Positions 16,907 to 42,537 of a stretch of DNA of 58,952 nt are shown here, one piece after another (the stretch's first letter is position 1; each line of letters starts with the position of its first letter). A model generated the notes under the pieces. That model was given only the letters and a program-made list of their open reading frames with translations, was not told where the DNA came from and did not search any database. The DNA comes from a bacterium (GTDB taxonomy: Bacteria; UBP7; UBA6624). Position numbers and translations under genes: made by a program. The DNA lies in the NCBI GenBank assembly GCA_002716355.1, contig PBAU01000009.1, forward strand, positions 1 through 58,952, in the 5' to 3' direction.

Positions 16907-17350
16907 TTATTTTGTTTTTTTGATAAGTCGAATATTATTGATTTCAATTTCTTTTGTTAGTGATTTTGTCATATCGTAAATGTTCAATAATGCAATCATT
17001 ACTGCATTTATTGCTTCTATCTCAACCCCTGTTTCAGATTTTGTTATAGTTTTTGAAGTGACTATCATGGAGTTTTCCTTCCATTTGATTTCAATTTTTA
17101 CATTTTTTAAATTTATTTGATGACAAAGGAGAACTAGATCCGATGTTTTTTTTGCAGCATTTATTCCTCCCAATTTTGCAACAGTAAGGATGTTGCCTTT
17201 CTTGCTCTTCGGGTCTTTTTTAATTTTTTGAGCAATTTTTTCAGGAAATGTTATTGAGCCTTCAGCAGTTGCTGTTCTTGTTGTGGTTTGTTTTTTTGAA
17301 ACATCAACCATGCTAACACCCCCTTCATCATCTAGATGTGTTAAATTCAT
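16907..17350 (-). CDS. moaC: Cyclic pyranopterin monophosphate synthase
   Basis: MoaC completes cyclic pyranopterin monophosphate formation after MoaA. Family blocks visible are MVDVSKKQTTTRTATAEG, AAKKTSDLVLLCHQINL and TGVEIEAINAVMIALLNIYD with DMTKSL. AGAGGAG is placed well for the ATG at 17350, which overlaps the moaE TAA (TAATG). Usually moaC is the first enzyme in transcription order; here moaA is upstream. Confidence 0.95.
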   Translation of the reverse strand: MNLTHLDDEGGVSMVDVSKKQTTTRTATAEGSITFPEKIAQKIKKDPKSKKGNILTVAKLGGINAAKKTSDLVLLCHQINLKNVKIEIKWKENSMIVTSKTITKSETGVEIEAINAVMIALLNIYDMTKSLTKEIEINNIRLIKKTK

Positions 17351-17718
17351 TAATTTATCTCCTCTTTCCATACAGGTAATCTTTTTTTACATTCTTCAAG
17401 AACCCATTCTGCTGCCTCAAAAGCTTCTTTTCTGTGTGGAGCTAATATGCCAATTTGTATAGATCTTTCTTTTGGTTTTATTTTTCCAGAACCATGTTTA
17501 ATTATGATTTCTTTAATGTCCCATTTTCCTTCTGCTTGTTTTGCAATTTTAGACCCTTCACTTTCAAGCATTTCTTCATACACTTCATAATTTATAAATC
17601 GAACTTTTTTGTTGTTGTTGGGACTTCTGACAGTTCCTTCAAAAAGAACCCAAGCCCCAGAATTAGCCCTGAAAGGTCTTTCCAGTTTTTTCAATTTACC
17701 TTTTTGGAATATTTTCAT
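17350..17718 (-). CDS. moaE: Molybdopterin synthase catalytic subunit
   Basis: MoaE inserts two sulfurs into cyclic pyranopterin using thiocarboxylated MoaD. Signatures are GAWVLFEGTVRSPNNN, INYEVYEEMLESE, HGSGKIKPKERSI, APHRKEAFEA and the C-terminal LPVWKEE with the catalytic lysine. It overlaps moaD by 4 nt. Confidence 0.93.
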   Translation of the reverse strand: MKIFQKGKLKKLERPFRANSGAWVLFEGTVRSPNNNKKVRFINYEVYEEMLESEGSKIAKQAEGKWDIKEIIIKHGSGKIKPKERSIQIGILAPHRKEAFEAAEWVLEECKKRLPVWKEEIN

Positions 17719-17936
17719 CCTCCAGACATAGGTGGCAAAAATGCAATTTCAGAATTTCTCGGAACTTTTTGGCTCCAGTCGCAAAATTCAAAATTCAAAG
17801 CAGGTTTGATCTTCTTTTTTTCTAATTTGATCTCTTGGTCCCATATTTTTTTTAAAGTTATATTTTCTTTCCAATCTATTTTTTTTTCTTTCCAGCCTAG
17901 CTCTTTTGCCAAGTGTCCAAAAAGCAGTATCTTCAT
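17715..17936 (-). CDS. moaD: Molybdopterin synthase sulfur carrier subunit
   Basis: A 73-residue ubiquitin-like protein that starts KILLFGHLAKELGWK and ends EIAFLPPMSGG. The terminal Gly-Gly is the site of thiocarboxylation. It lies directly between moaA and moaE. Confidence 0.93.
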   Translation of the reverse strand: MKILLFGHLAKELGWKEKKIDWKENITLKKIWDQEIKLEKKKIKPALNFEFCDWSQKVPRNSEIAFLPPMSGG

Positions 17937-18896
17937 TCAGCCTCCAATTTGAGACAAGGACATCCAAGTCTCCTCTTTTGTCTTCAAAGGATTATAAGTT
18001 CTTTTGTTTTTTATGGCTCTTTCGATCATTTCTTGAAGGTTTCCAATATTTTTATTTCTCAATTCATGTTTTAAATCGATACCTTTATTTTGATAGAGGC
18101 ATACAAATAATTTTCCATCACATGATATCCTTAACCTGGTACATTTGTGACAACCAGGGTCAGAAGCGGCTGCAATTAATCCAATTTCCTTTTTTGATTT
18201 ATTTATTTTTCTGTAAACCGCAGGGCTTAATTTCGATTCTCTAGTGTTGTTCTCCTTGGGTAAAAGCTCAGTTAACTTTTTTTCAATATCTTTTGCGGAA
18301 ATGAATTCATTTTTATGATAATCTGAAGTGGATGAAAATGACATCAATTCTATAAACCGCAAGCTTACCTCATGCTTTTTAGCAAAATCTATAAATTTAG
18401 GAATTTCATTGAAGTTTGTGTTTGTGACAACTGTGTTAATTTTTACATTACTGAAACCCAGTTTCTGTGCTTTTTTTAAAGATTCAAGTACCTTTTGAAG
18501 GTTCCCATTTCCGGTTGTTTTTTTAAATTTACTTGAATCAAGAGAATCTATACTGATGTTAATGTTGTCTATTCCTGAAATAATTAGGTCATTTATTTTT
18601 TCTGAAAGGTAGTGTCCATTAGTAGTTATTGATATTTCTGGTTTTGGATCAAGTGTTGAAAGCATTTGAACTAATTTGTTCAATCCCTTTCTCAACAGAG
18701 GCTCTCCCCCTGTAAGTCTTATTTTTTTTAAGCCAATAAGGGCATTAAAAATTTTTGCCAATTCAAAGTATTCTTCTATTTTCAGAAATTTATTATTTTC
18801 AATTGAGTTGATGTTCCCATTAGGTAAACAGTATTTACATCTGTAATTGCATTTATCAGTTAGCGATATGCGAAGATATTCTTGTTTAACATCCAT
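17937..18896 (-). CDS. moaA: GTP 3',8-cyclase (radical SAM)
   Basis: MoaA starts molybdenum cofactor synthesis by rearranging GTP. The radical-SAM cluster motif CNYRCKYC is at residues 16-23. The glycine-rich LTGGEPLLR follows, and the second cluster is CHKCTRLRISCDGKLFVC near 255-272. It ends in QIGG, the conserved C-terminal double glycine needed for activation. At 319 residues it is typical. Its start overlaps the unknown upstream gene by 11 nt. Confidence 0.95.
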   Translation of the reverse strand: MDVKQEYLRISLTDKCNYRCKYCLPNGNINSIENNKFLKIEEYFELAKIFNALIGLKKIRLTGGEPLLRKGLNKLVQMLSTLDPKPEISITTNGHYLSEKINDLIISGIDNINISIDSLDSSKFKKTTGNGNLQKVLESLKKAQKLGFSNVKINTVVTNTNFNEIPKFIDFAKKHEVSLRFIELMSFSSTSDYHKNEFISAKDIEKKLTELLPKENNTRESKLSPAVYRKINKSKKEIGLIAAASDPGCHKCTRLRISCDGKLFVCLYQNKGIDLKHELRNKNIGNLQEMIERAIKNKRTYNPLKTKEETWMSLSQIGG

Positions 18897-19320
18897 TTTT
18901 TATTATTTTTTTAATTTTTAGAAATATTTTTTCAGGGCTATCTTGATTGTCCCAACCATAGGTTTTAATTTTATGTTCTATTGTCTTAATTGATAATTTT
19001 AGTAATTTATCTTTTTTGGGAAAGATAACTAATTTTGCATCTTTTTCATTTTTTAAAACATTATTAAGTTCCATTGTTATTTTTGGGAAAAGGGTTAAAA
19101 AATCAAATACATTTTCTTGATTATGTATGTATTTAATCTTTAAGTAATGTTCATTGTCTTGATTAATTATTTTTCTTTCAGTCCAGTTTTGATTCGTTCC
19201 GGATATCCATAAAACATTTATATCTTGTTGTTTTGCAAGTTTCTGCGCTATATTCCAATATTTTTTTTTATGGTTTTTTCCATTTGAGGAAATGCTTCTT
19301 GATAATGCGATTATTTTCAT
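18886..19320 (-). CDS. Unknown protein embedded in the molybdopterin operon
   Basis: This 144-residue basic protein starts KIIALSRSISSNGKNHKKKY, with a beta-strand then Ser-rich loop somewhat like nucleotide-binding proteins. It has LVIFPKKDKLLKLSIKTIEHK towards the end. There is no membrane segment or metal motif. I do not recognise the family. It overlaps moaA by 11 nt and follows the NUDIX gene by 1 nt. A role in molybdenum cofactor handling is only suggested by context. Confidence 0.6.
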   Translation of the reverse strand: MKIIALSRSISSNGKNHKKKYWNIAQKLAKQQDINVLWISGTNQNWTERKIINQDNEHYLKIKYIHNQENVFDFLTLFPKITMELNNVLKNEKDAKLVIFPKKDKLLKLSIKTIEHKIKTYGWDNQDSPEKIFLKIKKIIKNGC

Positions 19321-19880: not shown

Positions 19881-20831
19881 TCAATCTACTGAAAGGCCTA
19901 ATTTTTTGAATATTCCCTTATAGGAAATTTTCCTTTCAGATGAATTGATCCTGTTTGCACTCATGCCTAATGATATGTTAATTAAGTCAGTTGAATACAT
20001 TACGGGTATTGGATCACTATTTATTCCAAGCTTTTTCATTATCTCTTCTTGGTATTTATCTATCGCCTCAAGACCTCTTGGATCAAGTGTTGCTATGACC
20101 TCAGCATTGCTTTCATGCGCATCCTCAATTATTGGAGTTATTATTTTTAATGCATATTTTTTGGAAATATTATTAAATTCATTTGATCCATGCTTTTTTA
20201 ATTCTATTGTTAAATAGCCACCAAGCCACCTATTGAAAGAGCCCCATTTGACACATTTTCCTCCTGATTTTTCAATTAGAGATGAAATCACAAAAGGATT
20301 ATCTGGATGATCTGATTGAACTTTTGACATTGGTCTCATGAGTTCAGGAGGCGTATGTACAGCTATCCTCAAAGGGTCAAATTGTTCTTCTCTGTCGTTT
20401 CCCAGCTTTCTTATAATCAATCTGTCAAATTTTTTCCCACCTGTTTGAGCTTTAATTAAATGGAGAATGTTAACTGCTTTGAATCTTCCAGCATAATCGA
20501 TCTCAAGAGATTTGACCATTTTGTCTTTTATCTTTTTGTATTGAGGTTCTTCAAGCCTGCTTATAGCTTTTCTGTAAATTTGATAAAGTAATGGGTCAGC
20601 TATAAAAAGTTTATCGTTTCTAGTTGTTTTTTCAGCAATGCATAGATTCCTTAAGGTGTATGCTAAAAATTTTGTTTCATCCGTTAAATAAGGCCCTTCT
20701 TCACCCGTATCGCTCCAATTTTGGATTGTTTCATCATCAATTCCTAATTGTCTTAAGCAAACAGAGATGCTACTTTCAAAATTTTTATATACTGAAGACA
20801 GCATGCCGGATTTCATTATTGTTACCTTCAC
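19881..20831 (-). CDS. HdrB-like (CCG-domain) protein lacking cluster cysteines
   Basis: The layout follows heterodisulfide reductase subunit B and related CCG proteins: RNLCIAEKTTRNDKLFIADP at residues 61-80 (family RNlxiAexxgAd..txC), IAVHTPPELMRP at 156-167 (family aVHYGCHxLrP), DNPFVISSLIEKSGGKCVKW, and PIPVMYSTDLINISLG near 274-289 (family iPvlhxtQLxglAlG). Yet both CCG sites are gone: the first CC reads EE (44-45), the second reads WLGG (202-205), and the CxxC partners are replaced. Only Cys25, 64 and 193 remain. HdrB proteins normally carry non-cubane [4Fe-4S] clusters for thiol/disulfide chemistry, so this one should not. The GTG start overlaps the HdrC-like stop as GTGA. Confidence 0.8.
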   Translation of the reverse strand: MKVTIMKSGMLSSVYKNFESSISVCLRQLGIDDETIQNWSDTGEEGPYLTDETKFLAYTLRNLCIAEKTTRNDKLFIADPLLYQIYRKAISRLEEPQYKKIKDKMVKSLEIDYAGRFKAVNILHLIKAQTGGKKFDRLIIRKLGNDREEQFDPLRIAVHTPPELMRPMSKVQSDHPDNPFVISSLIEKSGGKCVKWGSFNRWLGGYLTIELKKHGSNEFNNISKKYALKIITPIIEDAHESNAEVIATLDPRGLEAIDKYQEEIMKKLGINSDPIPVMYSTDLINISLGMSANRINSSERKISYKGIFKKLGLSVD

Positions 20832-21388
20832 TCTTCTCCCTCACTCCCTTCCTTTAAGGATTGGTTGAATGTAAAGAATCCAGGTAAATCCTGGATCTCT
20901 CTTAATGGCATTCTTTCTTCTTCCTCTTCTTCATCCCCACGGAGAAGTTTCTGGAAAAAACCTTTCTTTTTCTCCTCTTTTTTTTCTTCTTTTTCAAATC
21001 CAATGTCAGATGGTTGGATCCTGCCCCAATTTTCCAAAGGGGATATGAAGGAATTGTAGAAATCAAAAACAGGATTGTCCCTTGGGGCCATATTTCTTTT
21101 TATGGATTCAAATCTGAGCCATTCCAAAACTTTTTCAATATCTATATCTTCAGGAGCTATGTCTGTAGCGCAAAAAGCATCTTGCATTAACCATATGTCT
21201 ATTGAGGAAAGTATTGATTCGTCATTGGTCAATATGCCATTTATTATTCTTGATAGGCCATTTTTGCATATGTTTCTAGAAGGCATAGATCCATCTCCAG
21301 CCCACCAATGTTTTAATGGCATTAAGTTAATGCCCGTATCTTGCTTCAGTTTTTCATGAAGATGAGCAATTTTTGAAGAATCTTCCAT
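20828..21388 (-). CDS. HdrC-like protein lacking both ferredoxin cysteine motifs
   Basis: Residues 10-126 align without gaps to HdrC-type electron-transfer subunits. Landmarks are TGIN near 18, SRIINGILTNDESIL, IDIWLMQDAFCATDIAPEDI and VLEWLRFESIKRNMAP, ending with WGRI. In the second motif (67-79) the four family cysteines are Met, Ala, Ala, Ala. In the first (24-36) they are Leu, Trp, Gly, Met. The prolines closing both motifs are kept. An acidic/basic low-complexity tail (about 132-165) follows, then a conserved-looking PLREIQDLPGFFTF. It heads the minus-strand operon leading into moaA and is coupled to the HdrB-like gene. Confidence 0.75.
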   Translation of the reverse strand: MEDSSKIAHLHEKLKQDTGINLMPLKHWWAGDGSMPSRNICKNGLSRIINGILTNDESILSSIDIWLMQDAFCATDIAPEDIDIEKVLEWLRFESIKRNMAPRDNPVFDFYNSFISPLENWGRIQPSDIGFEKEEKKEEKKKGFFQKLLRGDEEEEEERMPLREIQDLPGFFTFNQSLKEGSEGEE

Positions 21389-31005: not shown

Positions 31006-32154
31006 TTACAAAACAGGAATTGCAAACGGTGATTTTTTATTTGTTTCAGGCATCGGGTACTCAACCCCATCGGAAAAAGTTCTCAATATGTCGTAATAAG
31101 TGTTTCTTTGAGCCGGCATCCTGCCTAAATCTCGAATCAGTCTAATGGCTTCGTTTGGATCAACTCGATAATGAACTCCTGTTGCGGCAATAACCTCTTC
31201 GCCAATTACAACTCCACCAAAATCATCAGCTCCATAATTCATTGCCATTTGGCATAATTTTGGACCATCTGTAACCCATCCAGCTTGAAGATGAGGTATG
31301 TTGTCCAACATCAACCTGCCCAAGGCAACATGTCGCAAATAGGCTTCTCCACCTGGTGCTTTTAGATGCGTGAGCTCAGTGCCTCCTGGCTGGAATCCCC
31401 AGCATACAAAAGCTGTAAATCCATTTGTTTCATCTTGTAGTTCCCTAAGGACATTGAAATGCTCCATTTTTTCCATGGCGCTTTCACCAAAGCCATAAGT
31501 CATTGTGCAGCTGGATGGAATCCCTTCCTCATGAGCTGACCTGTGTATATCCAGCCAAACATCACGACTGCTTCTAAGTGGAGATATTTCTTTTCTTACT
31601 CTATCAACTAGTATTTCTGCTCCAGCTCCTGGTAAAGACATGTATCCAGATTCTTTAAGCTCTGAAAAAACTTTATTGAAGCTCAACTTGTCTTTTTTGG
31701 CAATCCACTCTATTTCTGCTGATGAAAGGCTATGTATTTCAACATTAGGAAATTTATCCCGTATTATTTCAAAAATATTTTTAAAATCTTTTAGTCTGTA
31801 TCTTGGATTAACCCCACCTTGCATCAGCAATTGGGTACCTCCATAATCAACCAATTCTTGGACTCTTTCCAATATCTGTTCGATACTCAAGTCATAACCC
31901 TTTTTTGATTTTGGCAATTCATAAAAAGCACAAAATTTACAGAGGACATTACAAATGTTTGAATAATTTAAAATCGTATCTACAACAAACGTACCTATGT
32001 TTCTCGGATTATGTCTCAATCTTGCTTTATTCGCAAGGAATCCCAAAAGGTTTAATGGTGCTTTCTCAAACAGTTCACAACCATGTTCTAATGTTAGCCT
32101 TTCATTGTTTTCAAATGTGTCTACAGCTTCCTTTATCAACGGTGTTATTTTCAT
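31006..32154 (-). CDS. mqnC: Cyclic dehypoxanthinylfutalosine synthase (radical SAM)
   Basis: MqnC cyclises dehypoxanthine futalosine in menaquinone synthesis. The radical-SAM motif is CNVLCKFCAF near residues 68-77, followed by LLMQGGVNPRYRL, which separates MqnC from MqnE. LPGAGAEIL, SSCTMTYGFGE and the C-terminal GRMPAQRNTYYDIL are family signatures. It overlaps mqnA by 4 nt. The C-rich tract follows its stop. Confidence 0.93.
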   Translation of the reverse strand: MKITPLIKEAVDTFENNERLTLEHGCELFEKAPLNLLGFLANKARLRHNPRNIGTFVVDTILNYSNICNVLCKFCAFYELPKSKKGYDLSIEQILERVQELVDYGGTQLLMQGGVNPRYRLKDFKNIFEIIRDKFPNVEIHSLSSAEIEWIAKKDKLSFNKVFSELKESGYMSLPGAGAEILVDRVRKEISPLRSSRDVWLDIHRSAHEEGIPSSCTMTYGFGESAMEKMEHFNVLRELQDETNGFTAFVCWGFQPGGTELTHLKAPGGEAYLRHVALGRLMLDNIPHLQAGWVTDGPKLCQMAMNYGADDFGGVVIGEEVIAATGVHYRVDPNEAIRLIRDLGRMPAQRNTYYDILRTFSDGVEYPMPETNKKSPFAIPVL

Positions 32155-32933
32155 TTTTTACTATCGTATCTTTCTTTTGAAATTATAGGTCTTGTTAATT
32201 CTTTAAATATATTCCAACCTTGAAGGATTTTCTTTTCCAATTTAACCTCGTAACATTCAAGATATTGTTTTGCTGTTTTTTTATTTACTCCTGAAGAAAT
32301 CATTATGGATTCTTTGATTTTGTCAATGTTTTTTTTGCCCCAAGTGTATGAACAAAATAGCTTTTTATCGATTTCATTTTTGTATTTTTCTGCTTTTGAT
32401 CCTTTTTTGACACACCAGAAGGCATAAGGTATTGATGTTCCAGTCATCTCATGCCAAACTAAACCTAAATCTTCAAAGAAAGCGTATTTACCATCTTGGT
32501 ACCACCTTAAAGCTTTATCGCCTATACAAAGAACTGCTTCTGAGGATCTTGGATCATCCGCATGTATCAATTTTGGATAATGTTTAAATTTTTCCTTCCA
32601 TATTGCTTTCAGTAATAATGGACTTGTTACCCCGCTTGATAAATCTCTAATTCTGCATTCTTTCAACTCTTTCCATGGACGATCGCTAAAAATTCCTACA
32701 CTCATGACCGGACCCGAAGAAGATATGCCCCATGACCTTAAGGGTATTGCTTTTGAGTTTGATATTATGGCTCCAGCAGACAGCAAACCTGTTTCGAATT
32801 TTTCTTTCTTCCAGTCCTTTTCAACTTCAACAGGTCTTTTTGTGAAAAATTCAAAATCATGTTCAATTTTGTTTCTTTCTAATGCTAATGTCAAAGGGTA
32901 TCTGTTTCCAAATCCAATAAGGCTTGTCTTCAT
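32151..32933 (-). CDS. mqnA: Chorismate dehydratase
   Basis: MqnA converts chorismate to 3-enolpyruvyl-benzoate, the entry to the futalosine pathway. It is a periplasmic-binding-fold protein of 260 residues with LSAGAIISN, GPVMSVGIFSDRPW, SSGVTSPLLLKAI, LCIGDKALRW and DLGLVWHEMTGTSIPYAFW, the pattern of the family. Position directly upstream of mqnC confirms it. A perfect TATAAT lies 6 nt before the ATG. Confidence 0.9.
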   Translation of the reverse strand: MKTSLIGFGNRYPLTLALERNKIEHDFEFFTKRPVEVEKDWKKEKFETGLLSAGAIISNSKAIPLRSWGISSSGPVMSVGIFSDRPWKELKECRIRDLSSGVTSPLLLKAIWKEKFKHYPKLIHADDPRSSEAVLCIGDKALRWYQDGKYAFFEDLGLVWHEMTGTSIPYAFWCVKKGSKAEKYKNEIDKKLFCSYTWGKKNIDKIKESIMISSGVNKKTAKQYLECYEVKLEKKILQGWNIFKELTRPIISKERYDSKK

Positions 32934-32939
32934 GCTTTG

Positions 32940-32945
32940 ATTATA
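32940..32945 (-). promoter_or_regulatory. -10 box for leaderless mqnA
   Basis: The reverse complement is TATAAT, only 6 nt from the ATG at 32933, so the mRNA should begin at the start codon. Confidence 0.55.
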
Positions 32946-32958
32946 TTTTTTCTATGTC

Positions 32959-32964
32959 TAGAAT
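32959..32964 (+). promoter_or_regulatory. -10 box for the Sel1 gene cluster
   Basis: TAGAAT ends 10 nt before the Sel1 ATG and is divergent from the mqnA -10 box within 20 bp. Confidence 0.45.
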
Positions 32965-32974
32965 ATAAGTAAAG

Positions 32975-33628
32975 ATGAAAAGAAAAGAGGCTGTTTTTTT
33001 AAAAATGAAAGCTTCTAGCGGTTGTTTGCATTCACAAGTTGAGCTAGGCAGAGCTTTTTTGTTTGGGGAGGGTTTTTCTCAAAGCTTTAAAGATGCTGAA
33101 TTCTGGTTAAGAAAATCATACGAAGAAGGTAGCCTAGAGGGCGCTTATCAATTGGCAATGTTTTTAAAAAGGTCGATTGGCAATAAAGAGAAAAATAATG
33201 AAGCTTTTCAGGTTCTTTATCATGCTGCTAGCTTAGGCCATGTTAAAAGCCAGAGAAGGTTAGCAAGATGTTTTTTGAATGGTTCTGGAACAGAGGAAAA
33301 TCAAGCTGAAGCTGCTTGGTGGTTTTTTGTTTCAGGTCTTTTAGGCGATCGTGATTCAAGGTTTATGCTAGGCAGGATGTTTGAGCTTGGGCAAGGTGTT
33401 GATCCTGATTCAGATGAATCTGTTTATTGGTATGAGCTTGCTGCTGAGAATGGAGATGTTGATGCTCAGTTCCTTCTTGCAAAAATTTTATTCAATAAAG
33501 GCTTTATCGAAGATTCTGAAAGATGGTTTAAATCGGCAAGAAGAGCTGGAGACAAAGAGGCCGTTAAGGAGTTGAAAAAAATAAAAGAAATAAAGGAGAG
33601 TGAAATTGATGAAAATTACAAATACTGA
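32975..33628 (+). CDS. Sel1-like repeat protein
   Basis: Five to six Sel1/TPR-type repeats of 30-36 residues are visible: CLHSQVELGRAFLFGEGFSQ, EGAYQLAMFLKRS, VKSQRRLARCFLNGSGTEEN, RDSRFMLGRMFELGQGVDPD and VDAQFLLAKILFNKGFIED. Such helical repeats bind partner proteins. No signal peptide is seen, so it is cytoplasmic. It begins a five-gene plus-strand cluster with two YbjQ-family genes, a SOUL protein and a methyltransferase; its 3' end overlaps the first YbjQ gene. Confidence 0.88.
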   Translation: MKRKEAVFLKMKASSGCLHSQVELGRAFLFGEGFSQSFKDAEFWLRKSYEEGSLEGAYQLAMFLKRSIGNKEKNNEAFQVLYHAASLGHVKSQRRLARCFLNGSGTEENQAEAAWWFFVSGLLGDRDSRFMLGRMFELGQGVDPDSDESVYWYELAAENGDVDAQFLLAKILFNKGFIEDSERWFKSARRAGDKEAVKELKKIKEIKESEIDENYKY

Positions 33629-33932
33629 AGAAGTTCCCGGATACAAGGTTATTGAAATTGTTGGACTAGTTGAAGGTTCAACAGTAAGAGCTAAGCATAT
33701 AGGAAAAGACATAATGGCGGGGCTTAAGGGTATTACTGGCGGAGAGATGAAAGAATACACCGAGCTCTTAAATGAATCAAGGCAGGAAGCGGTGAAAAGA
33801 ATGTCATTGAGAGCTGAAGCATTAGGGGCAAATGCCATACTTAATGTAAGGTTTTCAACATCAAGCGTTTCTCAAGGTGCTGCTGAATTGTTTGCATATG
33901 GCAGTGCTGCAATCGTGGAGAAGAATAGCTAA
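33609..33932 (+). CDS. YbjQ/UPF0145 family protein
   Basis: A compact protein of about 107 residues with VPGYKVIEIVGLVEGSTVRAK, the core GLKGITGGEMKEYTELLNES with its GGE, RAEALGANAILNVRF, and FAYGSAA at the end. These are the usual blocks of YbjQ (DUF74), sometimes called heavy-metal-binding domain; the function is not settled. AGGAG at 33594-33598 favours the ATG at 33609 over the GTG at 33600. It overlaps the Sel1 gene. Confidence 0.85.
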   Translation: MKITNTEEVPGYKVIEIVGLVEGSTVRAKHIGKDIMAGLKGITGGEMKEYTELLNESRQEAVKRMSLRAEALGANAILNVRFSTSSVSQGAAELFAYGSAAIVEKNS

Positions 33933-33936
33933 AGAG

Positions 33937-34398
33937 ATGTGGGAGATTCTTAGTCAGTTTTTATGGTTGATTTTCTGTTTTGTTTTTTGGCTGGCAGGAA
34001 AGATCAAAGAGCAAAAATATTTAAAATCATTGAGGGAAGAGGAGCCTGAATATTCAGATATTCAAATTTTAAGCACAGTCGATTCAGCTAGTTCCTCAGA
34101 AGCTAAAGATTGTTGCTTGTGTTCAACCCAAGTTGTATTGGCAATAGACCCGGGCAAGCAAGTTATTGCTTGGATTTTGGGCATGGTTGGCGGAAAGATT
34201 GATGTTTACCAGAAGGTTTTGCATATGGCAAGACGTAAGGCGAAGCTTAATTTAAGAAAGCAGGCAAGAGAAAATAACTCAAGATTGATTATGAATTACA
34301 GGATGGAAACATCGAATATTTTTGCAAATAGTGGTAGCAGTGAAGGTCAAAGTAGTGCCGTTGAGGTTTTTGCATATGGAACTATTGTCAAGAGCTGA
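33937..34398 (+). CDS. Membrane-anchored divergent YbjQ-family paralogue
   Basis: An N-terminal membrane helix (ILSQFLWLIFCFVFWLAG) is followed by a linker and a degenerate YbjQ domain: GMVGGKIDVYQKVLHMARRK aligns with the GGEmkeYtelL block of the preceding protein, and VFAYGTIV ends it. A new CCLC cluster lies near residues 59-62, where YbjQ normally has none. The start is probably the ATG at 33937, 4 nt after the preceding stop. It looks like a tandem duplication that gained an anchor. Confidence 0.7.
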   Translation: MWEILSQFLWLIFCFVFWLAGKIKEQKYLKSLREEEPEYSDIQILSTVDSASSSEAKDCCLCSTQVVLAIDPGKQVIAWILGMVGGKIDVYQKVLHMARRKAKLNLRKQARENNSRLIMNYRMETSNIFANSGSSEGQSSAVEVFAYGTIVKS

Positions 34399-34416
34399 AG
34401 GACACACAATGATCAA

Positions 34417-34968
34417 ATGATTTTTTTTACAATTATGATGTTTGCGATGGCTTTGGATTCAAAGATAAAAGAACCTGATTACACCATTCTGCAAAAGGAA
34501 AAAAATATAGAAATCAGAGAGTATTCTGAATATGTAATTGCCAGAACGTCTGTAATCAAAGACGAAAACAGGAGCGATAATGGAATGTTTATGATTCTTG
34601 CCAATTACATTTTCGGTGGAAACAAAAAGAAAGAAAGCATCGCTATGACTGCTCCAGTTATAACAAAAGAAAATGATGAATCTTACGACATGGTTTTCTT
34701 TATGCTTGATGTTGATGAGGTTGATGAGTTGCCGAATCCAGATAGCAAAAATGTCCATTTGGAAAGAATGAACCTAGGTAAAACTGTTGCTATAAGGTTT
34801 GGATGGTGGGCAACAAGATGGAACATCGAAAGGAATAGGAGAATTTTAGAGCGTTATATTGAGGAAAATGATTTAGAGGTTGTTTCTGAGATGATGGTTG
34901 CTCAATACAATTCACCTTGGGATTGGCCATTTCTTAGGAGAAATGACGTTATTTTTCAAATTAAATAA
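34417..34968 (+). CDS. SOUL-family heme-binding protein
   Basis: The SOUL/HEBP fold is shown by EPDYTILQKEKNIEIREYSE at the start, then IFGGNKKKESIAMTAPVI (family FxYIxGxNxxxxkIpMTaPV), VAIRFGWWATRW, and the C-terminal YNSPWDWPFLRRNDVIFQI. A hydrophobic start (FFTIMMFAMALD) may be a signal sequence. It could bind heme or a similar hydrophobic ligand. It is the fourth gene of the Sel1-YbjQ cluster. Confidence 0.9.
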   Translation: MIFFTIMMFAMALDSKIKEPDYTILQKEKNIEIREYSEYVIARTSVIKDENRSDNGMFMILANYIFGGNKKKESIAMTAPVITKENDESYDMVFFMLDVDEVDELPNPDSKNVHLERMNLGKTVAIRFGWWATRWNIERNRRILERYIEENDLEVVSEMMVAQYNSPWDWPFLRRNDVIFQIK

Positions 34969-34983
34969 GATTGAAATCGATAC

Positions 34984-35604
34984 ATGAATAAAGAAAAAGA
35001 AAGCGCAGTTAACTTTTTTGGAAAATGGGCTGAAACAGGAAAAGACGAAGGCATGGAGGAACACCATTCTGATTCCGTTAAATTCATGTTAGATCAAATC
35101 TTGAATCAAGCAAGTGCTAAATTTAATTTTATAGATGCTGGTTGTGGTAATGGATGGGTTGTTCGAAAGGTTAAGTTACATCCTTTATGTGAGCATGCTT
35201 CAGGAATAGATGGAGCGTCCCAGATGATAAATAAAGCAAAATCCCTTGATCCTGCAGGTAGTTATTTCCATAACGATTTGATTAGTTGGGATCCAGATTC
35301 CAAATATGATTTTGTCCATTCTATGGAGGTTTTTTATTATTTCAAAGATCCCTCTGTGCTTCTGAAAAAAATACACAAAGATTGGCTTTCTGAAAAAGGA
35401 AAGCTTGTATTCGGAATCGATCATTATCTTGAAAATAAATCATCCTTGGATTGGCCTGAAAAATGTGGCGTCTTCATGAATACGTTGCCAATAAGCAAAT
35501 GGCATGATTTGATTTCAGAAGCAGGATTCAAGAACATCAGGAATTGGCAAGTTGGAAAAAAGAAAGATTGGCTTGGAACGTTGGTTTTTTATGCAGAAAA
35601 ATAA
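34984..35604 (+). CDS. Class I SAM-dependent methyltransferase
   Basis: The SAM-binding motif FIDAGCGNGWVVRKV is near residue 44, the acidic motif II SGIDGAS near 74, and motif IV YDFVHSMEVFYYF near 102. The general architecture is that of UbiE/Methyltransf_11 proteins. The substrate is unknown. Its stop abuts the stop of the EamA gene on the opposite strand with no gap. Confidence 0.85.
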   Translation: MNKEKESAVNFFGKWAETGKDEGMEEHHSDSVKFMLDQILNQASAKFNFIDAGCGNGWVVRKVKLHPLCEHASGIDGASQMINKAKSLDPAGSYFHNDLISWDPDSKYDFVHSMEVFYYFKDPSVLLKKIHKDWLSEKGKLVFGIDHYLENKSSLDWPEKCGVFMNTLPISKWHDLISEAGFKNIRNWQVGKKKDWLGTLVFYAEK

Positions 35605-36483
35605 TTATTTTCTTTGGACCATCCAGACGCCAAAAAGAACAACCGGCAAGGCCATCCAGAATCCTTCTTGAGGAACTTGTTTGTAAATTGTCATTGCAAC
35701 CAGTGTTGTTGTTGGCGGTTGCAGATTGATAAACACTGCAACTTGACTTGGTTTTAGAAACTGGAGAGCTGTGGCCCATATTGAATAGGCCACTATGCTT
35801 GTTAGGAATGCAATGTGAAATAGGCCATACCATGCAAAAGGTGTAATCTCAGAGAAATTGGGTTTCTCACCAATCAAGAATATCCCAACAGCAATAGGTA
35901 GACCTATCAAAAAGGATCTTGAAATAGCCTCTTTTGCACCTATGGTTTTTGATATTGGAGGTATGAGAGATGTGTATATTGCCCAGCATATAACACCAAA
36001 AAGTATTGTTTTTTCTCCGTTGCCAAAAGTTGAAAGCCCACTGTTGCCAAGAATCCAATATGTTCCTGAAAATGCCAACAAGAGTCCAAAGATTCGAGAA
36101 AAAATAACTTTCTCTTCTTTAAGTATCAATGAAATCATTAAAACAAAAACCGGTGTTGTTGCATAAAGAATGGAAGCATGCGCTGGAGGCGTTCCCATGG
36201 ACATCCCCTGTAAAAAAAAGGCTTGATTTAATACAATTAAAATACCACAAAATATCATTCTTGGCATAAGTTTTTTTGGAATTATAGAAAAGCCATTTTT
36301 GTAAATTCCTATTAGTGAAAATATCAAAACTGTAAGAGCGATCCTTAATCCAACTAATGCTGAACCACCAAAGGCTTCACTTGACACTTTTGATACATTG
36401 TATGTAAGCGCAGTGATTGCTAAATGTACAAGCAGTAGCAGGATAACCTTGCGTTTTGGGATTTCTTTGATTGTTGTTTTGAT
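35605..36483 (-). CDS. EamA/DMT-family transporter, non-canonical start
   Basis: A drug/metabolite transporter with about ten helices in two EamA repeats, including YATTPVFVLMISLILKEE and LQPPTTTLVAMTIYKQVPQ. The first canonical start is a GTG at 36387, which would remove helix 1. Upstream the frame encodes KRKVILLLLVHLAITAL and then TYNVSKVSSEAFGGSALVGL, the family's normal first helix and loop, and no ATG, GTG or TTG occurs before a TGA at 36547. Candidate starts are ATC 36483 (behind AGAAGG) or CTC 36489. It follows mqnE closely. Confidence 0.82.
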   Translation of the reverse strand: MKTTIKEIPKRKVILLLLVHLAITALTYNVSKVSSEAFGGSALVGLRIALTVLIFSLIGIYKNGFSIIPKKLMPRMIFCGILIVLNQAFFLQGMSMGTPPAHASILYATTPVFVLMISLILKEEKVIFSRIFGLLLAFSGTYWILGNSGLSTFGNGEKTILFGVICWAIYTSLIPPISKTIGAKEAISRSFLIGLPIAVGIFLIGEKPNFSEITPFAWYGLFHIAFLTSIVAYSIWATALQFLKPSQVAVFINLQPPTTTLVAMTIYKQVPQEGFWMALPVVLFGVWMVQRK

Positions 36484-36500
36484 TTTGAGATTGCCTTCTT

Positions 36501-37652
36501 TTAGATTCTTTTTGCAAATTCCATAAGATCTTTTTTGCTGGGTGCATCACTATATACAGAGTTGACTGGTACAGGCTTCCTGCCACTTTCTTTTAATATT
36601 CGCATGAGGTTTGCTTGTGTAAACTCATTTGAAGAAAAGCCTCCAGCTTCTTTTGCGATTTCTTCATCAAGACTTGTACCACCAACATCATCAACTCCAT
36701 AATGCAACAGAACCTGTGTCATTTTTGGACCTTGATATGTCCATAGTATTCTGATGTGCGGAAAATTATCTAAGTAAATTCTGCTTATTGCGCAAATTCT
36801 TGCGTCATAATGTCCCGTAGTAGCTCCTACCTCATCTTCAAATTCTGTATTATCGGGAAGAAAGGCCAATGGTATCAAGGCGAGAAAACCATTCGTTTTA
36901 TCCTGAGTTTTCCTCAAAAGGTCAAGATGATGAATGATTTCTTCTTTTGTCTCTATGTGGCCATAAAGCATTGTTGCATTGCTATTCATTCCAACCTTAT
37001 GTGTAATCTCATGTATTTCAAGCCATTCCTCTCCAGTCTCTTTGTTTCTTGCAATAATTTGTCTTGGTCTTTCATGGAATATTTCCGCTCCACCGCCAGG
37101 AACAGAGTCAAGGCCCCATTTTTTAAATTTAACCAATAATTCTTCTGGGGTTATTTTGCATAATTTTGCTATATATCTAATTTCTATTGCAGTGAAACCC
37201 TGTATAAACATATGAGGAGCTTTTCTTTTTATTGTTTGCAGAAATTCTTTGTAGTAATCGAGTTTTAATCTTGGTGTTATTCCGCCAACAATATGTATTT
37301 CCCAAATTCCATTGCGTACAGCCCAGTCAACTCTTTTTTCCAGTTCTTCTTTGTCGACAATATAGGATTCTTCATGCATTTTTTTAGGATTAAAAGGTCT
37401 TTTGAATGCACATAAGCCACAATCAAGTATGCATTCATTTGTATGGTTTATATTTGAGGTGTTCCCATAAAATGATTTATTTCCCCATCTTTTTCTTCTT
37501 ATGTAGTCAGCCATGATTCCCAATGCAGTCAAATCACCTTCTTTAATCAACCTGACACCTTCTTCATAAGTGATTCTTTCTCCTGATTTTATTTTCTCCC
37601 AAGCCCAATTGTCGGGATGGTTTTTTAATAGGATATCTGCTGTTTCAGGCAT
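36501..37652 (-). CDS. mqnE: Aminodeoxyfutalosine synthase (radical SAM)
   Basis: MqnE joins 3-enolpyruvyl-benzoate and SAM to make aminodeoxyfutalosine. The cluster motif CILDCGLCAFKRPF is near residue 70. It is followed by HIVGGITPRLKLDYYKEFL, LPPGGGAEIF-like VPGGGAEIF, and ATMLYGHIET; this pattern separates it from MqnC. The ATG at 37652 overlaps ubiX by 8 nt and starts MPETADILLKNHPD, the family's natural start. Confidence 0.93.
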   Translation of the reverse strand: MPETADILLKNHPDNWAWEKIKSGERITYEEGVRLIKEGDLTALGIMADYIRRKRWGNKSFYGNTSNINHTNECILDCGLCAFKRPFNPKKMHEESYIVDKEELEKRVDWAVRNGIWEIHIVGGITPRLKLDYYKEFLQTIKRKAPHMFIQGFTAIEIRYIAKLCKITPEELLVKFKKWGLDSVPGGGAEIFHERPRQIIARNKETGEEWLEIHEITHKVGMNSNATMLYGHIETKEEIIHHLDLLRKTQDKTNGFLALIPLAFLPDNTEFEDEVGATTGHYDARICAISRIYLDNFPHIRILWTYQGPKMTQVLLHYGVDDVGGTSLDEEIAKEAGGFSSNEFTQANLMRILKESGRKPVPVNSVYSDAPSKKDLMEFAKRI

Positions 37653-38268
37653 CTTGAAATTCCTTTGGAATTCCCCATTCAGGTACAAGCTTATTGTCTA
37701 TGTTGAGTGAATCAAGAATGCGTGCAACAACACTATCTATTAGGTCCTGAATGGTTTCAGCACCTTGGTAAAACGTTGGATTTGCATCTACGATAGTGGC
37801 CCCAGCTCTAGATACTTTTAACAAGTTGTCAAGATGAATTTGAGAAAGTGGTGTTTCTCTAGGAACAAGGATCAAAGGTCTTTTTTCCTTTAGTGTCACA
37901 TCTGCCGCTCGATGAAGAAGGTTTGATGTTACTCCATTTGATATATGCCCTAAGGTTCCCATCGACATTGGAACAACGACCATGCCTCTGGTTCTATAGG
38001 TTCCGCTTGCTATAGTGGCTGACATATCCATCCCTGGATGCCATGTTAAATCAGTCCATTTTACATTTTTGCCATATTGTTCTTCGATGAATTTTTGTGG
38101 ATTTTTACCAAAATTGAAATTCAATTCATGATTTAACAGATATTTTCCCCATTTGCTTGTGACTATTTCAACTGGAATATCCCTTTTGACAAGTTCTTTA
38201 ATCAATGTGTGAGCATACAGTGCTCCTGAAGCTCCAGTTATACCTACAATTACAGGTAAATTTTTCAT
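37645..38268 (-). CDS. ubiX: Flavin prenyltransferase UbiX
   Basis: UbiX makes prenylated FMN for UbiD-type decarboxylases. It begins VIVGITGASGALYAHTLI and carries MVVVPMSMGTLGHISNGV, LILVPRETPLSQIHLDNLL and GATIVDANPTFYQ, all conserved in the family. It overlaps mqnE and is coupled to the peroxiredoxin gene by TAATG. Its partner UbiD is in the same operon. Confidence 0.94.
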   Translation of the reverse strand: MKNLPVIVGITGASGALYAHTLIKELVKRDIPVEIVTSKWGKYLLNHELNFNFGKNPQKFIEEQYGKNVKWTDLTWHPGMDMSATIASGTYRTRGMVVVPMSMGTLGHISNGVTSNLLHRAADVTLKEKRPLILVPRETPLSQIHLDNLLKVSRAGATIVDANPTFYQGAETIQDLIDSVVARILDSLNIDNKLVPEWGIPKEFQDA

Positions 38269-38888
38269 TAAGATATTTTATCTTCCTTCAGTGAAGATAG
38301 GATGTTTATTTTCTCCATAACTTCCTGGTCATGTATTCCAACTCTCACGCTTGTGAAAACATATGCAATCTTTCCTTCAGGGTTGACTATAAAAGTTATT
38401 CTTGATGCAAAGCCCAGGTCACCTAAAACTCCAAACTTTTGACTAATCTTCTTGTCAGAATCAGCAATAAGATCAAAAGGTAACTCCTTGTCTTTCTTGA
38501 ATTTTCTTTGTGTTTTTAGATTATCTGTACTGATACCTAGTACATTAATATTTTTTTGATCAAAGTTAGAGTAACCGTCTCTCAAACTACATGACTGAGT
38601 TGTACATCCAGGGGTAAAAGATTTTGGGAAAAAATAAAGAACGCTCCAGTTGCCCTTAAGGTCTTCTGAGGTTATTGTTCCAGATGTTGATGAAGCTTCA
38701 AATTCAGGAATGCTTTCACCTATCTCTAAAATTTCCCGATCCATAAGCTCACCTGGTTTCACAAAGGTATCATAAACAGCGATGCCAAATATAAATATTA
38801 TGAAGATTAGCGCTTCCAAGCTGAAACCTTTGATTATTACTGGTAGGCCTTTTTTAACATTCGATAAGATTTTTTTCAAGTGATTCAT
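38268..38888 (-). CDS. Membrane-anchored BCP-type peroxiredoxin
   Basis: An N-terminal membrane segment (LEALIFIIFIFGIAVYDTFV) near residues 23-42 is followed by a thioredoxin-fold peroxiredoxin: FTPGCTTQSCSLRDGY gives the peroxidatic Cys and, five residues on, the likely resolving Cys. It would reduce peroxides at the membrane. The ATG at 38888 overlaps the preceding stop (ATGA); the upstream in-frame start at 38969 lies inside the preceding gene. Confidence 0.88.
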   Translation of the reverse strand: MNHLKKILSNVKKGLPVIIKGFSLEALIFIIFIFGIAVYDTFVKPGELMDREILEIGESIPEFEASSTSGTITSEDLKGNWSVLYFFPKSFTPGCTTQSCSLRDGYSNFDQKNINVLGISTDNLKTQRKFKKDKELPFDLIADSDKKISQKFGVLGDLGFASRITFIVNPEGKIAYVFTSVRVGIHDQEVMEKINILSSLKEDKIS

Positions 38889-40432
38889 TTTCCCTCTAAA
38901 ATTTTCAACCTTTCTTCTTTTTGGCTGAAAAAGTTTTTTCTCAGCATGTATCTGTAGGGATTCTCCCATGAAACAAGCCAGCTTTGCATATTGATGTCGG
39001 CATTGAAGCCAGATTCATTTGAGTTTGGGTTTTCCTGAGGGTCATAAGGCTTTCCTTCATACAGGGCTTCATAAGTCATCAGCATGTTGCCCCTGTTTGG
39101 ATTTTTGATTTCTATACTGAATGGAAGAACATCCCAGCCTGGACACCAATAGGCCCTTCCATAAGGCCATGTTCCAAATTGGTTAGGGACTACACCTTCG
39201 TTAGCAAGTTGATAACACCCTTCACCAGTGCCAGCTTTCGGGTCTTTTAATTCCCCCAAAATTTCACCATTGATGGAAAAGTGATGTGTATGATTGCAGA
39301 ATTCAGCACAGTTTGCAACATCTCTTCCCCAACCGTGACCAGACATGATTCCGTTTATCGTGTATTTTTCAAATTGAGGATTTTCTAAAAGGTAAGGTTT
39401 TTTAGATGGGTTATATTCCAGATTGAAAGATCCTCCTGTCCACATCCTGTGGGCATTCATCGGTCTAAGTTTGCTATCATTTTTGGACAGGTAAATACGC
39501 ATGTTCATTATGTAGGAGGAGTTTCCTGTGGGTACATTTATTTTGAATTTTTTAACCCCGCCTTCTTTAAAAAAAGCCAAGAAAGGGGTTATGTCAGTAA
39601 GCCAAACACCCCTCCTATGATATGTCGTAATCCATCTTGACATCAGGATATCACACTTGTTCTCTTCGCAAAGGTGCAAATTTGCTATCATGTCCCATTC
39701 ATAACAGTTTTTATCATTATTGTCAGGGCAGTTCATTTCAAAATAAATTTCCATCTCGTTAAAGCTTAAAAGTTTTTGTGTTTTTGGAAACTCAACTTCA
39801 AACTCTGCATTTGCACCCCAGCCACCGCTTAACTCAAAACCATCAAGCATAACCACTTCTTCCTTTTTGTCATTAAGCTTCATTTTTTTTGTTAATTCTT
39901 TTTCCCAGTAAAGGTATTGGATCTCTTTTTCAACTGCATCGAAAATCGGAGTAGGGCTTTTTCCTGGTGGTCGGAGAAGGCCAAATTGTCTTAGGTGACC
40001 ATTTGAATCAATTAAGAATCCAGCTTTATCTGCACTCCATTCTTTTTCCCATTCAGAAAGTATTAATTCAATGTTATCAGGCAAGACGGTATTATTTTTA
40101 TTTATAAAATGTAAATATTTTTCCCAATCTGTGCCAATTACATTTTCTTTAATTTCATTTAATCTTTGATCCGCTGATTCACCTGAAGCAATAAAGACTA
40201 TGTTTGTTTTGGGTATTTCATCTATTAGTTCTTGAAAATTTGAACTCCAGAGGTTCTCCGTATAGGCATCCCCTTCTGTTAATTCAAGAAAGGCTATTAT
40301 TTCATCTGAATCTTGAGTGTATGAAAATACTCCTTGATCAACTTGAAGTTCAAATGATTCTATTTTTTCAAAAGGTTTAACACCATTGAAAAATGACAAC
40401 AGCATTAAACCCAATAAATATTTTTTTCTCAT
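38885..40432 (-). CDS. Secreted PNGase F-like glycan amidase with thioredoxin-like N-terminal region
   Basis: A signal peptide (KKYLLGLMLLSFFNGVKPF) is followed by about 170 residues that look like a thioredoxin-fold segment (ADKAGFLIDSNGHLRQFGLL). Residues 195-end match peptide-N-glycosidase F-type proteins: WITTYHRRGVWLTDITPFL, SGHGWGRDVANCAEFCNHTH and VPNQFGTWPYGRAYWCPGWD. PNGase F removes N-linked glycans from proteins. Catalytic residues were not mapped, so activity is not certain. TAATG couples it to the DUF5916 gene. Confidence 0.75.
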   Translation of the reverse strand: MRKKYLLGLMLLSFFNGVKPFEKIESFELQVDQGVFSYTQDSDEIIAFLELTEGDAYTENLWSSNFQELIDEIPKTNIVFIASGESADQRLNEIKENVIGTDWEKYLHFINKNNTVLPDNIELILSEWEKEWSADKAGFLIDSNGHLRQFGLLRPPGKSPTPIFDAVEKEIQYLYWEKELTKKMKLNDKKEEVVMLDGFELSGGWGANAEFEVEFPKTQKLLSFNEMEIYFEMNCPDNNDKNCYEWDMIANLHLCEENKCDILMSRWITTYHRRGVWLTDITPFLAFFKEGGVKKFKINVPTGNSSYIMNMRIYLSKNDSKLRPMNAHRMWTGGSFNLEYNPSKKPYLLENPQFEKYTINGIMSGHGWGRDVANCAEFCNHTHHFSINGEILGELKDPKAGTGEGCYQLANEGVVPNQFGTWPYGRAYWCPGWDVLPFSIEIKNPNRGNMLMTYEALYEGKPYDPQENPNSNESGFNADINMQSWLVSWENPYRYMLRKNFFSQKEERLKILEGK

Positions 40433-42537
40433 TAATACAACCACTCCTTTTTAAATATTACCTTCCATGAGTCACCGGTTGATTCATCATTGGTATTTAC
40501 AACTAGGTATGTTGCTTCTCCATCCTTGGGCCTGAATTCAAATCTAAAATATGCATTAATTGCATCTGATAGATTGTTTTTTTGTACCGAAAGGCTGTAA
40601 AGATGGGATGATGTTGGGGTGTAGCCAAAATCAAATGAATATATTTCAGAGCTCGATGAGGAGCTGCCTCTTTTTACATTATTCATATTCCAGTTTGGCC
40701 CAAAAGAAAAATCATTTGTTATTTTGTAATTCAGCCACCCGTCAAGGCTCGTCTTGCTAGCATCATACCAATCTCCAGAATTGAAACCTCCACCCCATAC
40801 CCATTTGTAATCATAGGCCCAGCCAAAATAGTTCAGACCGTAATCAACATAATCATATTCACCTGCAGGTATTATTGTCCCAGGTAATGACCAAGGTTCA
40901 AAATCTTGATCCAAAACTGATTTGTACATTGTGATTTCAGGCCTCCATGACCATCCATTACTCATAGATAAACCCAACGGTTCTATTCTTAGAGAGTTTT
41001 CTACAAGCTTGTTCGCTCCATTTGAAATTTCATTGAAGCTGATCTCATTTGAAATTTCCCTTATTTGATATTTTTCTTCACATTTTTTTTTCCAGAAATT
41101 TATACATTTTGATACATTTTCCGAATGTTCAATTTCAATTTTTTTAACTTTTACTGAATCATTCAACGATGAGTATCTGTAATAGCCTAGGCCAGGGTCA
41201 AAATCTGCATCAAAAATCATATATTCGGCGGAGGCAGAAAGAGGATTTCCGAAGCTTTCTACTTTAAAATAATGGCCTTCTCCATCTTTATTTTCGCTTG
41301 ATGAAAATTGTGACCATAAGTCAACATTCAACCTTGTCCCATTGTCGTTAATCGACTTCCATGAAACATCTATGCCATTTGTCATGTTTGAAGAATTCGA
41401 ATCTTCACTGGAGGAAATAAAACCTATATTTGTGTTGTCTGTTATTTGATGTTTTGTTCTTAGGATTGCAAAATGTTCATCAATTGAGTCTTCAACCCAT
41501 GCTGTTAAAAAGCCAACCTCATTAATATCGAATTTCCCTGTGATTTTTGATCCAACTCTAAGTGGAAGCTGGTTTCCATTTTCATCTAAACCGATATTTC
41601 TGCTATGGAATGGAAGGGCTGAACCTTTGCTACCAAATGAAAAAAGTCCTGAATTTTCTAAAAAGAAATCTCTTTTTTCAGGAAAAAACAAAGAGTAGCG
41701 AGTTAAGTTGCTTTGCTGTACATCTGCCTCAGCTTCTCCAAAATCAGCATTCAAAACTGATGCAATCCTCCATCCTTTCCATGGGGTGCCAATAATGTCT
41801 ATTCCAACATCAGCCTTATAGTCCATCTCTGTTTCTTGAGTCGCTTTTCCAAGCATAAATGGTTTCATTATCCAAGGATTTGAACTGGGCAAATCATTCA
41901 TTCCTGTTAATTCACCTCCTTTTGACAGTGTGTTAAGGCTATTGCTTTTTTCCCATCCTGTCCAATAGCCAGCTTCCCTTTCTTTTGAGTACCAGTATTT
42001 GAAATTTATTCCCCAGTTGTTATTATTCTCTGCATATGCAAGCGTTGAAAAAGGTATTTTTATTTCTGCACTCCATCCATCTTTTGTCAATGTGCCCATT
42101 CCTTCCCAATATCCATCCCAATCTTGATCTGGCCTGGATTCATTGGTTATCGTTCCATCAACCCTGCTTCCATTAGCATTAATGCCAAAATAGTAACCAT
42201 TTCTTTTTGACAAATAAGGGTCTATAACAATTTCTATTTTGTCATCATTGTAGAGAGTTTGGTCCCTTTTTTTGTAATTGTTTATCAGCTTGTCAGTTTT
42301 TGCCTTATACCCTATATATAGATTTTCTTTATCTCTCCAGATGAAAATCCTTGCTTCAAGGGTGCCTTTTTCGCCTTCTTTTGGTTGTTGTTGAGTCCAA
42401 TTTTGAATAATTGCTGCCTTGCTCCACACCTCTTCTTCGAGAATTCCATCAATCTTCACGCTCTGCTGCATTGTTGGAGCGCTTATTGTTTTTGATGCAA
42501 TCAAGATAAGTGAAATTAAAATTTTGTTTTTTTTCAT
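40432..42537 (-). CDS. DUF5916 outer-membrane protein with CBM9-like domain
   Basis: A signal peptide (NKILISLILIASKTISA) precedes a CBM9-type domain, residues 25-220: VKIDGILEEEVWSKA, NLYIGYKAKTDK, DDKIEIVIDP and INFKYWYSKE. The C-terminal 450 residues consist of alternating aromatic beta strands typical of an outer-membrane barrel (FFPEKRDFFLENSGLFSFG is a hallmark of the DUF5916 family). Function unknown; CBM9 domains bind sugars. It lies inside the menaquinone operon, next to the PNGase F-like gene, suggesting a glycan-related job. Confidence 0.85.
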   Translation of the reverse strand: MKKNKILISLILIASKTISAPTMQQSVKIDGILEEEVWSKAAIIQNWTQQQPKEGEKGTLEARIFIWRDKENLYIGYKAKTDKLINNYKKRDQTLYNDDKIEIVIDPYLSKRNGYYFGINANGSRVDGTITNESRPDQDWDGYWEGMGTLTKDGWSAEIKIPFSTLAYAENNNNWGINFKYWYSKEREAGYWTGWEKSNSLNTLSKGGELTGMNDLPSSNPWIMKPFMLGKATQETEMDYKADVGIDIIGTPWKGWRIASVLNADFGEAEADVQQSNLTRYSLFFPEKRDFFLENSGLFSFGSKGSALPFHSRNIGLDENGNQLPLRVGSKITGKFDINEVGFLTAWVEDSIDEHFAILRTKHQITDNTNIGFISSSEDSNSSNMTNGIDVSWKSINDNGTRLNVDLWSQFSSSENKDGEGHYFKVESFGNPLSASAEYMIFDADFDPGLGYYRYSSLNDSVKVKKIEIEHSENVSKCINFWKKKCEEKYQIREISNEISFNEISNGANKLVENSLRIEPLGLSMSNGWSWRPEITMYKSVLDQDFEPWSLPGTIIPAGEYDYVDYGLNYFGWAYDYKWVWGGGFNSGDWYDASKTSLDGWLNYKITNDFSFGPNWNMNNVKRGSSSSSSEIYSFDFGYTPTSSHLYSLSVQKNNLSDAINAYFRFEFRPKDGEATYLVVNTNDESTGDSWKVIFKKEWLY

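Follow-up and report, generated by a model that had tools for sequence, protein, structure and literature searches.

HdrC- and HdrB-like proteins without iron-sulfur cluster ligands in a UBP7 bacterium, as probable subunits of a remodelled Hdr-Flx complex

Introduction

HdrABC-Flx complexes work through their iron-sulfur clusters. In HdrC, eight cysteines hold two [4Fe-4S] clusters, and HdrB carries ten cysteines, with two CCG motifs, for its two non-cubane clusters. Here we consider two adjacent bacterial genes whose products retain landmarks of heterodisulfide reductase subunits C and B but carry only five cysteines in total. The genes lie in a contig of a bacterium from the UBP7 lineage, and the whole stretch of DNA analysed here (58,952 nucleotides) is called the window below. 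A first-pass annotation, made from the letters alone, had regarded them as an isolated, cluster-free pair heading a molybdopterin operon. The question raised by this locus is whether the two proteins truly belong to the HdrC and HdrB families, whether they stand alone, and what function might be left to them once the clusters are gone.

Results

The two open reading frames were found on the minus strand, adjacent and coupled as first described, with the GTG start of the hdrB-like gene and the stop of the hdrC-like gene overlapping by 4 nt in the form GTGA (Table 1). Although both proteins match NCBIfam models, their scores fall far under the equivalog cut-offs. The HdrB-like protein matches TIGR03288 over nearly its full length (residues 12-311, 6.4e-17; the score is 61.7 bits and the cut-off 345), and the HdrC-like protein matches TIGR03290 weakly (5.5e-4). 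A Pfam search of the pair returned nothing relevant, including no match to PF02754; the CCG and Fer4 models depend on cysteines. With a profile built from two HdrB-like sequences, soluble HdrB chains of known structure are matched at 1.6e-12 to 4.9e-7. An AlphaFold2 prediction for the HdrB-like protein (pLDDT 91) superposes on chain B of the methanogen structure 5odc with Z 30.9 and an rmsd of 2.5 across 285 aligned residues, and the predicted model of the HdrC-like protein (pLDDT 77.5) matches HdrC chains with Z 12.8-13.5, the next family being SdhB at 6.8. Profile matches, predicted folds and the order of the genes all show the pair to be homologous to HdrC and HdrB, and the family membership originally suggested from short sequence landmarks is confirmed, the alignments agreeing with it as well. 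The HdrB fold also occurs in residues 233-495 of a Helicobacter pylori protein of unknown function (3kwl; Z 21.7 to the HdrB-like model).

The SdhE model NF042965 matches the HdrB-like protein as well, weakly. A role as an SdhE-type anchor of succinate dehydrogenase or fumarate reductase was ruled out, as the sdhA-sdhB genes of this genome adjoin two small membrane-anchor genes. A second fumarate reductase/succinate dehydrogenase set lies on a short contig of the same assembly (C15, L070) together with ExbBD/TonB-like genes and PPDK, and this contig possibly comes from another organism through binning contamination.

Table 1. Positions of the genes and regions discussed. G000 is the genome that contains the window; G001 and G002 are the two other genomes of the phylum.
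Feature	Location	Strand	Remarks
HdrC-like	window 20828-21388	-	186 aa, ATG start; open reading frame, TIGR03290, HdrC fold, ligand audit
HdrB-like	window 19881-20831	-	316 aa, GTG start; open reading frame, TIGR03288, HdrB fold, ligand audit
144-aa protein	window 18886-19320	-	between the pair and moaA; no family match
moaA, moaD, moaE, moaC	window 16907-18896	-	same set and order in G002 (L025 14472-16492)
moaD	window 17715-17936	-	73 aa, C-terminus PPMSGG
Menaquinone genes (by eye)	window 31006-44812
Interval between pair and moa in G002	L021 16214-19353
hdrA/mvhD-flxC-flxB-flxA	G000 contig C2 51014-56029 (L095 9015-14030)
FlxB-like	L095 12235-13257
hdrA/mvhD-flxC-flxB-flxA	G001 contig C15 (L096 3418-8435)
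hdrA/mvhD-flxC-flxB-flxA	G002 contig C16 (L097 4615-9675)

The replacement of the cluster cysteines proved to extend throughout the pair. Alignment of the HdrC-like protein with canonical HdrC places the eight ligand columns at residues 25, 28, 31, 35, 68, 71, 74 and 78, where the residues are L25, W28, G31 and M35 in one set and M68, A71, A74 and A78 in the other (0/8 Cys), exactly as had been read by eye. In the HdrB-like protein the ten columns (residues 9, 41, 42, 79, 82, 162, 202, 203, 250 and 253) are occupied by G, D, T, D, L, P, W, L, D and G (0/10 Cys). The first reading of the sites was accurate, with one nuance at the first CCG site, which had been given as EE; the gap-free alignment places D41 and T42 there and the two glutamates three residues on, although no cysteine is present either way. 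Within the same alignments, relatives from other genomes have cysteine at every ligand column that they cover, for all 41 of the 41 HdrB sequences (one of which is gapped at the first three columns) and all 28 of the 28 HdrC sequences. The five cysteines counted in the pair are confirmed as two and three in the respective proteins, and none of them occupies a ligand column or forms part of a cluster motif.

We then have to consider whether this loss is peculiar to one sequence. The search set included three genomes of this phylum, all metagenome-assembled and 62-87% complete, namely that of the window itself and two others (G001 and G002). An orthologous pair (P0003/P0004), 47 and 50% identical and equally without ligands, is present in G002, which represents another genus (NIOZ-UU106), and it also appears in the public record JACNFQ010000058.1. 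Because this cross-genus pair shows the same loss, the absence of ligands is not a matter of chance. The same divergent aminotransferase gene adjoins the pair in G002. The third genome (G001, 62% complete) has no hdrCB, and since it also lacks an ortholog of the neighbouring aminotransferase, the region is probably just missing from that assembly.

The proposed position in front of the molybdopterin genes is correct as to gene order. In the window a Nudix gene and a small gene separate the pair from moaA-D-E-C, and the corresponding interval in G002 has MBL-fold, GlcD-like and GlcF genes where the window has the Nudix gene. What links the pair to the moa genes is conserved synteny, which provides no evidence of a molybdenum role. 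The GlcF of the G002 interval is canonical, with its CCG cysteines intact. The 144-aa protein has an ortholog at the same place in G002 (28% identical), and its N-terminus resembles those of glycosyltransferases by eye. Elsewhere in the window, genes of the futalosine route to menaquinone can be recognized by eye, including MqnA, two radical-SAM Mqn proteins and UbiX-, UbiA- and UbiD-like proteins.

The nearest canonical relatives of the pair belong to hdrC-hdrB-hdrA-mvhD-flxC-flxB-flxA clusters, and a search of the phylum with the HdrA of such a cluster yielded one strong match in each of the three genomes. Every match is the first gene of a four-gene set, hdrA/mvhD-flxC-flxB-flxA, whose order is identical in all three and agrees with that of canonical complexes. 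Its first product is an HdrA-MvhD fusion (HdrA2 model NF040770, 3.7e-116; FlpD PF02662, 5.2e-24). The FlxB-like protein matches ShyB/HydB beta models (6.8e-19 and 2e-17) and the FlxA-like protein is PyrK/AsrB-like (1.4e-13 and 3e-11), while FlxC is assigned by gene order and by scores of 30-100 bits to canonical FlxC, with no Pfam or NCBIfam match. In G000 and G002 this set is preceded by lipB-lipA, the pyruvate dehydrogenase genes E1a-E1b-E2-E3 and tatC; in G001 the contig begins within the E2 region, and E3-tatC precede the set. The genome of the window thus encodes all six proteins, HdrA and MvhD being fused, at two separate loci, and a PF02754 search of this genome found no canonical HdrB elsewhere in it. 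Rather than forming an isolated pair, the two proteins more likely belong to a complete HdrABC-MvhD-FlxCBA complex, the other members of which are encoded elsewhere in the genome.

These additional proteins are likewise nearly devoid of cluster cysteines. At columns that most of the canonical sequences share, the cysteine counts fall from 26 to 0 in HdrA, from 5 to 0 in MvhD, from 12 to 0 in FlxC, from 16 to 3 in FlxB and from 8 to 0 in FlxA. Under a stricter count, restricted to columns that are invariant in five complete canonical complexes, only three of 80 cluster cysteines are kept (77 are gone), all of them in FlxB, compared with 210 of 601 other invariant residues (35%; p 1.3e-10), and the ligand loss is therefore specific to cysteines rather than an outcome of general divergence. 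A genome-wide loss of iron-sulfur proteins was ruled out, as the motifs of ordinary representatives of this class in the same genome (SdhB, MoaA and LipA) are intact. Given that a direct check of the cluster ligands showed them to be missing, the pair and the associated Hdr-Flx proteins are, by defining features, not working members of HdrB, HdrC or Hdr-Flx. The FlxB-like protein conserves its three cluster cysteines and two further ones in all three genomes (ICxGYHNPPPCC and GCSGAHRC), and these form a possible residual metal or thiol site.

The flavin sites have had unequal fates. In all three genomes, FlxA has other residues in place of the flavin motif IASSPT and the NAD motif GGIALPP. In HdrA, by comparison, the FAD part is the best kept, with 55 of 102 invariant non-cysteine residues retained in all three genomes, and its dinucleotide motif is conserved in each. 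Residues K396 and E356 of the HdrA studied here, also conserved in all three, occupy the alignment positions of Methanothermococcus HdrA residues K409 and E356, which interact with the flavin N5 and have been proposed as marks of bifurcating HdrA (PMC12054007). With both motifs gone from FlxA and the HdrA site kept, the HdrA FAD is the only cofactor of the assembly that we would predict from these sequences.

Selection on the second locus is strong. A comparison of the two species that share a genus gives dN/dS values of 0.04 for hdrA, 0.02 for flxC, 0.033 for flxB and 0.036 for flxA, compared with 0.038 for pyruvate dehydrogenase E3 and higher values (0.07-0.18) for other nearby genes. This comparison covers the second locus; hdrCB is absent from G001 and saturated at synonymous sites against G002, and the cross-genus identity of 47-50% for that pair resembles those of LipA (50.5%) and MiaA (42%). 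More generally, cross-genus identity is 47-60% for five of the six complex proteins, similar to that of LipA, E3 and Nfo. At the former ligand positions, too, the new residues agree between genera in 60-80% of cases, with FlxC as an exception (45%), and in an HdrA tree the three HdrAs of the phylum form one fully supported branch. The ligand loss is best read as a single remodelling in the ancestor of the lineage, followed by stabilisation.

Searches beyond the phylum returned no comparable proteins. With HdrB and FlxC profiles run against 386 sampled genomes, no cluster-free forms were seen in other phyla, where all 41 HdrB homologs examined, as the inspected part of the HdrB matches, keep their cysteines and the FlxC profile scores at most 92.7 bits outside the phylum as against 600-651 bits. 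The FlxC profile applied to one neighbouring phylum and the FlxB profile applied to another gave low scores only. A single-sequence scan of genome contigs returned nothing, as did a scan of viral contigs, and an alignment-based scan of genome contigs found a match only in NIOZ-UU106.

Discussion

By descent, the pair and the complex to which it probably belongs are a variant of Hdr-Flx. FlxABCD-HdrABC is an NADH dehydrogenase/heterodisulfide reductase of Desulfovibrio and other anaerobes, according to Ramos et al. 2015 as cited in PMC5861303. The proteins described here share with it the same subunits, full-length homology and the order seen in the canonical clusters (L074, L075, L076, L079 and L114), but they lack 77 of the 80 invariant cluster cysteines along with the FAD/NAD motifs of FlxA, and they differ from it also in the fusion of HdrA with MvhD and in the separate location of hdrCB. 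Relative to methanogen HdrABC (5odc, 8rvu and 7bkb), the likeness extends to the HdrB fold, to the HdrC fold (Z 13.1 to 5odc_C, the best score being 13.5) and to the two flavin-site residues corresponding to K409 and E356, whereas ligands for cubane and non-cubane clusters and a hydrogenase context are absent. A third relative, HdrA2B2C2 of Methanosarcina acetivorans, also has an HdrA-MvhD fusion and an hdrA2 gene unlinked to hdrB2C2 (PMC5296606), but that complex contains clusters and reduces heterodisulfide, whereas the proteins studied here have no ligands and are accompanied by FlxCBA-like proteins.

Partial loss of clusters from HdrA is already known. HdrA variants of ANME archaea have lost iron-sulfur cysteines to varying degrees (PMC9012536), and among 28 HdrA classes cluster loss is seen in methanogens too (PMC12054007). 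As in those variants and classes, clusters are lost here while the FAD site of HdrA is kept; unlike them, where some of the HdrA clusters vary, all subunits are affected. Our search of the open-access literature found no cluster-free Hdr or Hdr-Flx complex, and we found no published precedent for cluster loss across the whole complex.

We consider it moderately probable that the pair represents HdrC and HdrB of an Hdr-Flx complex whose clusters were essentially all lost in the ancestor of the lineage and which has been under strong selection ever since. The subunits would still assemble into one complex, with the HdrA FAD, whose binding is predicted from motifs, as its only redox cofactor and the remaining subunits as a protein shell around HdrA. 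Because no one-electron path would link the nicotinamide site, the HdrA flavin and HdrB without clusters, we infer from sequence and from the established HdrABC architecture that the assembly cannot use the known route of electron bifurcation. With FAD as the sole redox cofactor, HdrA might instead carry out two-electron (hydride-type) chemistry or sense a small redox partner, and the assembly could perhaps serve pyruvate/NADH metabolism, whose genes adjoin hdrA-flx. Neither unlinked loci nor direct two-electron chemistry at HdrA would be unprecedented, since in Methanosarcina the unlinked hdrA2 and hdrB2C2 genes give an active complex in which F420H2, a two-electron donor, is used by HdrA2 (PMC5296606). 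Against this reading stand the location of hdrCB and hdrA-flxCBA at separate loci, the absence of hdrCB from the 62%-complete G001, the three cluster cysteines left in FlxB with two more conserved ones close by, and a basis of three metagenome-assembled genomes of 62-87% completeness. Somewhat more tentatively, we believe it quite possible that a bifurcating machine was converted in this way into a cluster-free, FAD-only multi-subunit enzyme whose two-electron redox or sensing activity is tied to pyruvate oxidation.

The main rival, in line with the role first suggested for the pair, is a pure scaffold or regulator that has no redox activity, in which the FAD of HdrA is structural and the assembly organises or regulates the pyruvate dehydrogenase/lipoate system. 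We judge it rather unlikely. In its favour, almost every cluster has gone and so have the FlxA FAD/NAD motifs, the shell subunits remain constrained, and the order lipB-lipA-E1a-E1b-E2-E3-tatC-hdrA-flxCBA is shared by two genera. But a pure scaffold would not need the catalytic Lys/Glu pair and the FAD part that is the best kept of HdrA, and the pyruvate dehydrogenase neighbourhood is weak evidence because synteny is generally high in this lineage.

It is improbable, in our estimation, that the pair and the hdrA-flx proteins were exapted separately and no longer form one complex, with HdrBC taking on a new role such as ligand binding in the remodelled former active site. The two loci could be read in this manner, as could the observation that, in the HdrB-like protein, cross-genus conservation is higher around the former clusters than in the remainder (0.64 versus 0.47, with 19 of 303 shifts as high). 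But all six proteins are co-retained with parallel ligand loss in both genera, and the loci of the working HdrA2B2C2 are unlinked as well (PMC5296606). Even less probable is the binding of other metals or cofactors at the old cluster sites through the replacing residues. There are a few Asp, Glu and His among the replacements, and FlxB keeps its three cluster cysteines plus two further conserved ones, but for the most part Gly, Ala, Ser, Met, Leu, Trp and Pro have taken the place of the ligands, and the His and Glu of FlxC are not conserved across genera. Finally, a decaying relic or an assembly artefact is barely credible: decay would also look like total ligand loss and the genomes are metagenome-assembled, but the open reading frames are intact in both genera and, with a dN/dS of 0.02-0.04 for hdrA-flx, rule out a pseudogene, while five of the six proteins are about as conserved as LipA, E3 and Nfo, and the G002 pair is also found in the public record JACNFQ010000058.1.

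Returning to the reading that we prefer, in which a remodelled Hdr-Flx complex persists under selection, nearly all ligands have been stripped and every subunit has been kept, those tested being strongly constrained, which shows that the assembly or its flavin does something worth keeping. If true, the Hdr-Flx protein framework has outlived its one-electron relay. The lineage would then offer a case of a complex anaerobic enzyme that has been repurposed, and a natural experiment in which what HdrA does through its flavin and its structure could be told apart from electron bifurcation. The same proteins also call for caution in annotation, given that homology alone would label them an electron-bifurcating reductase.
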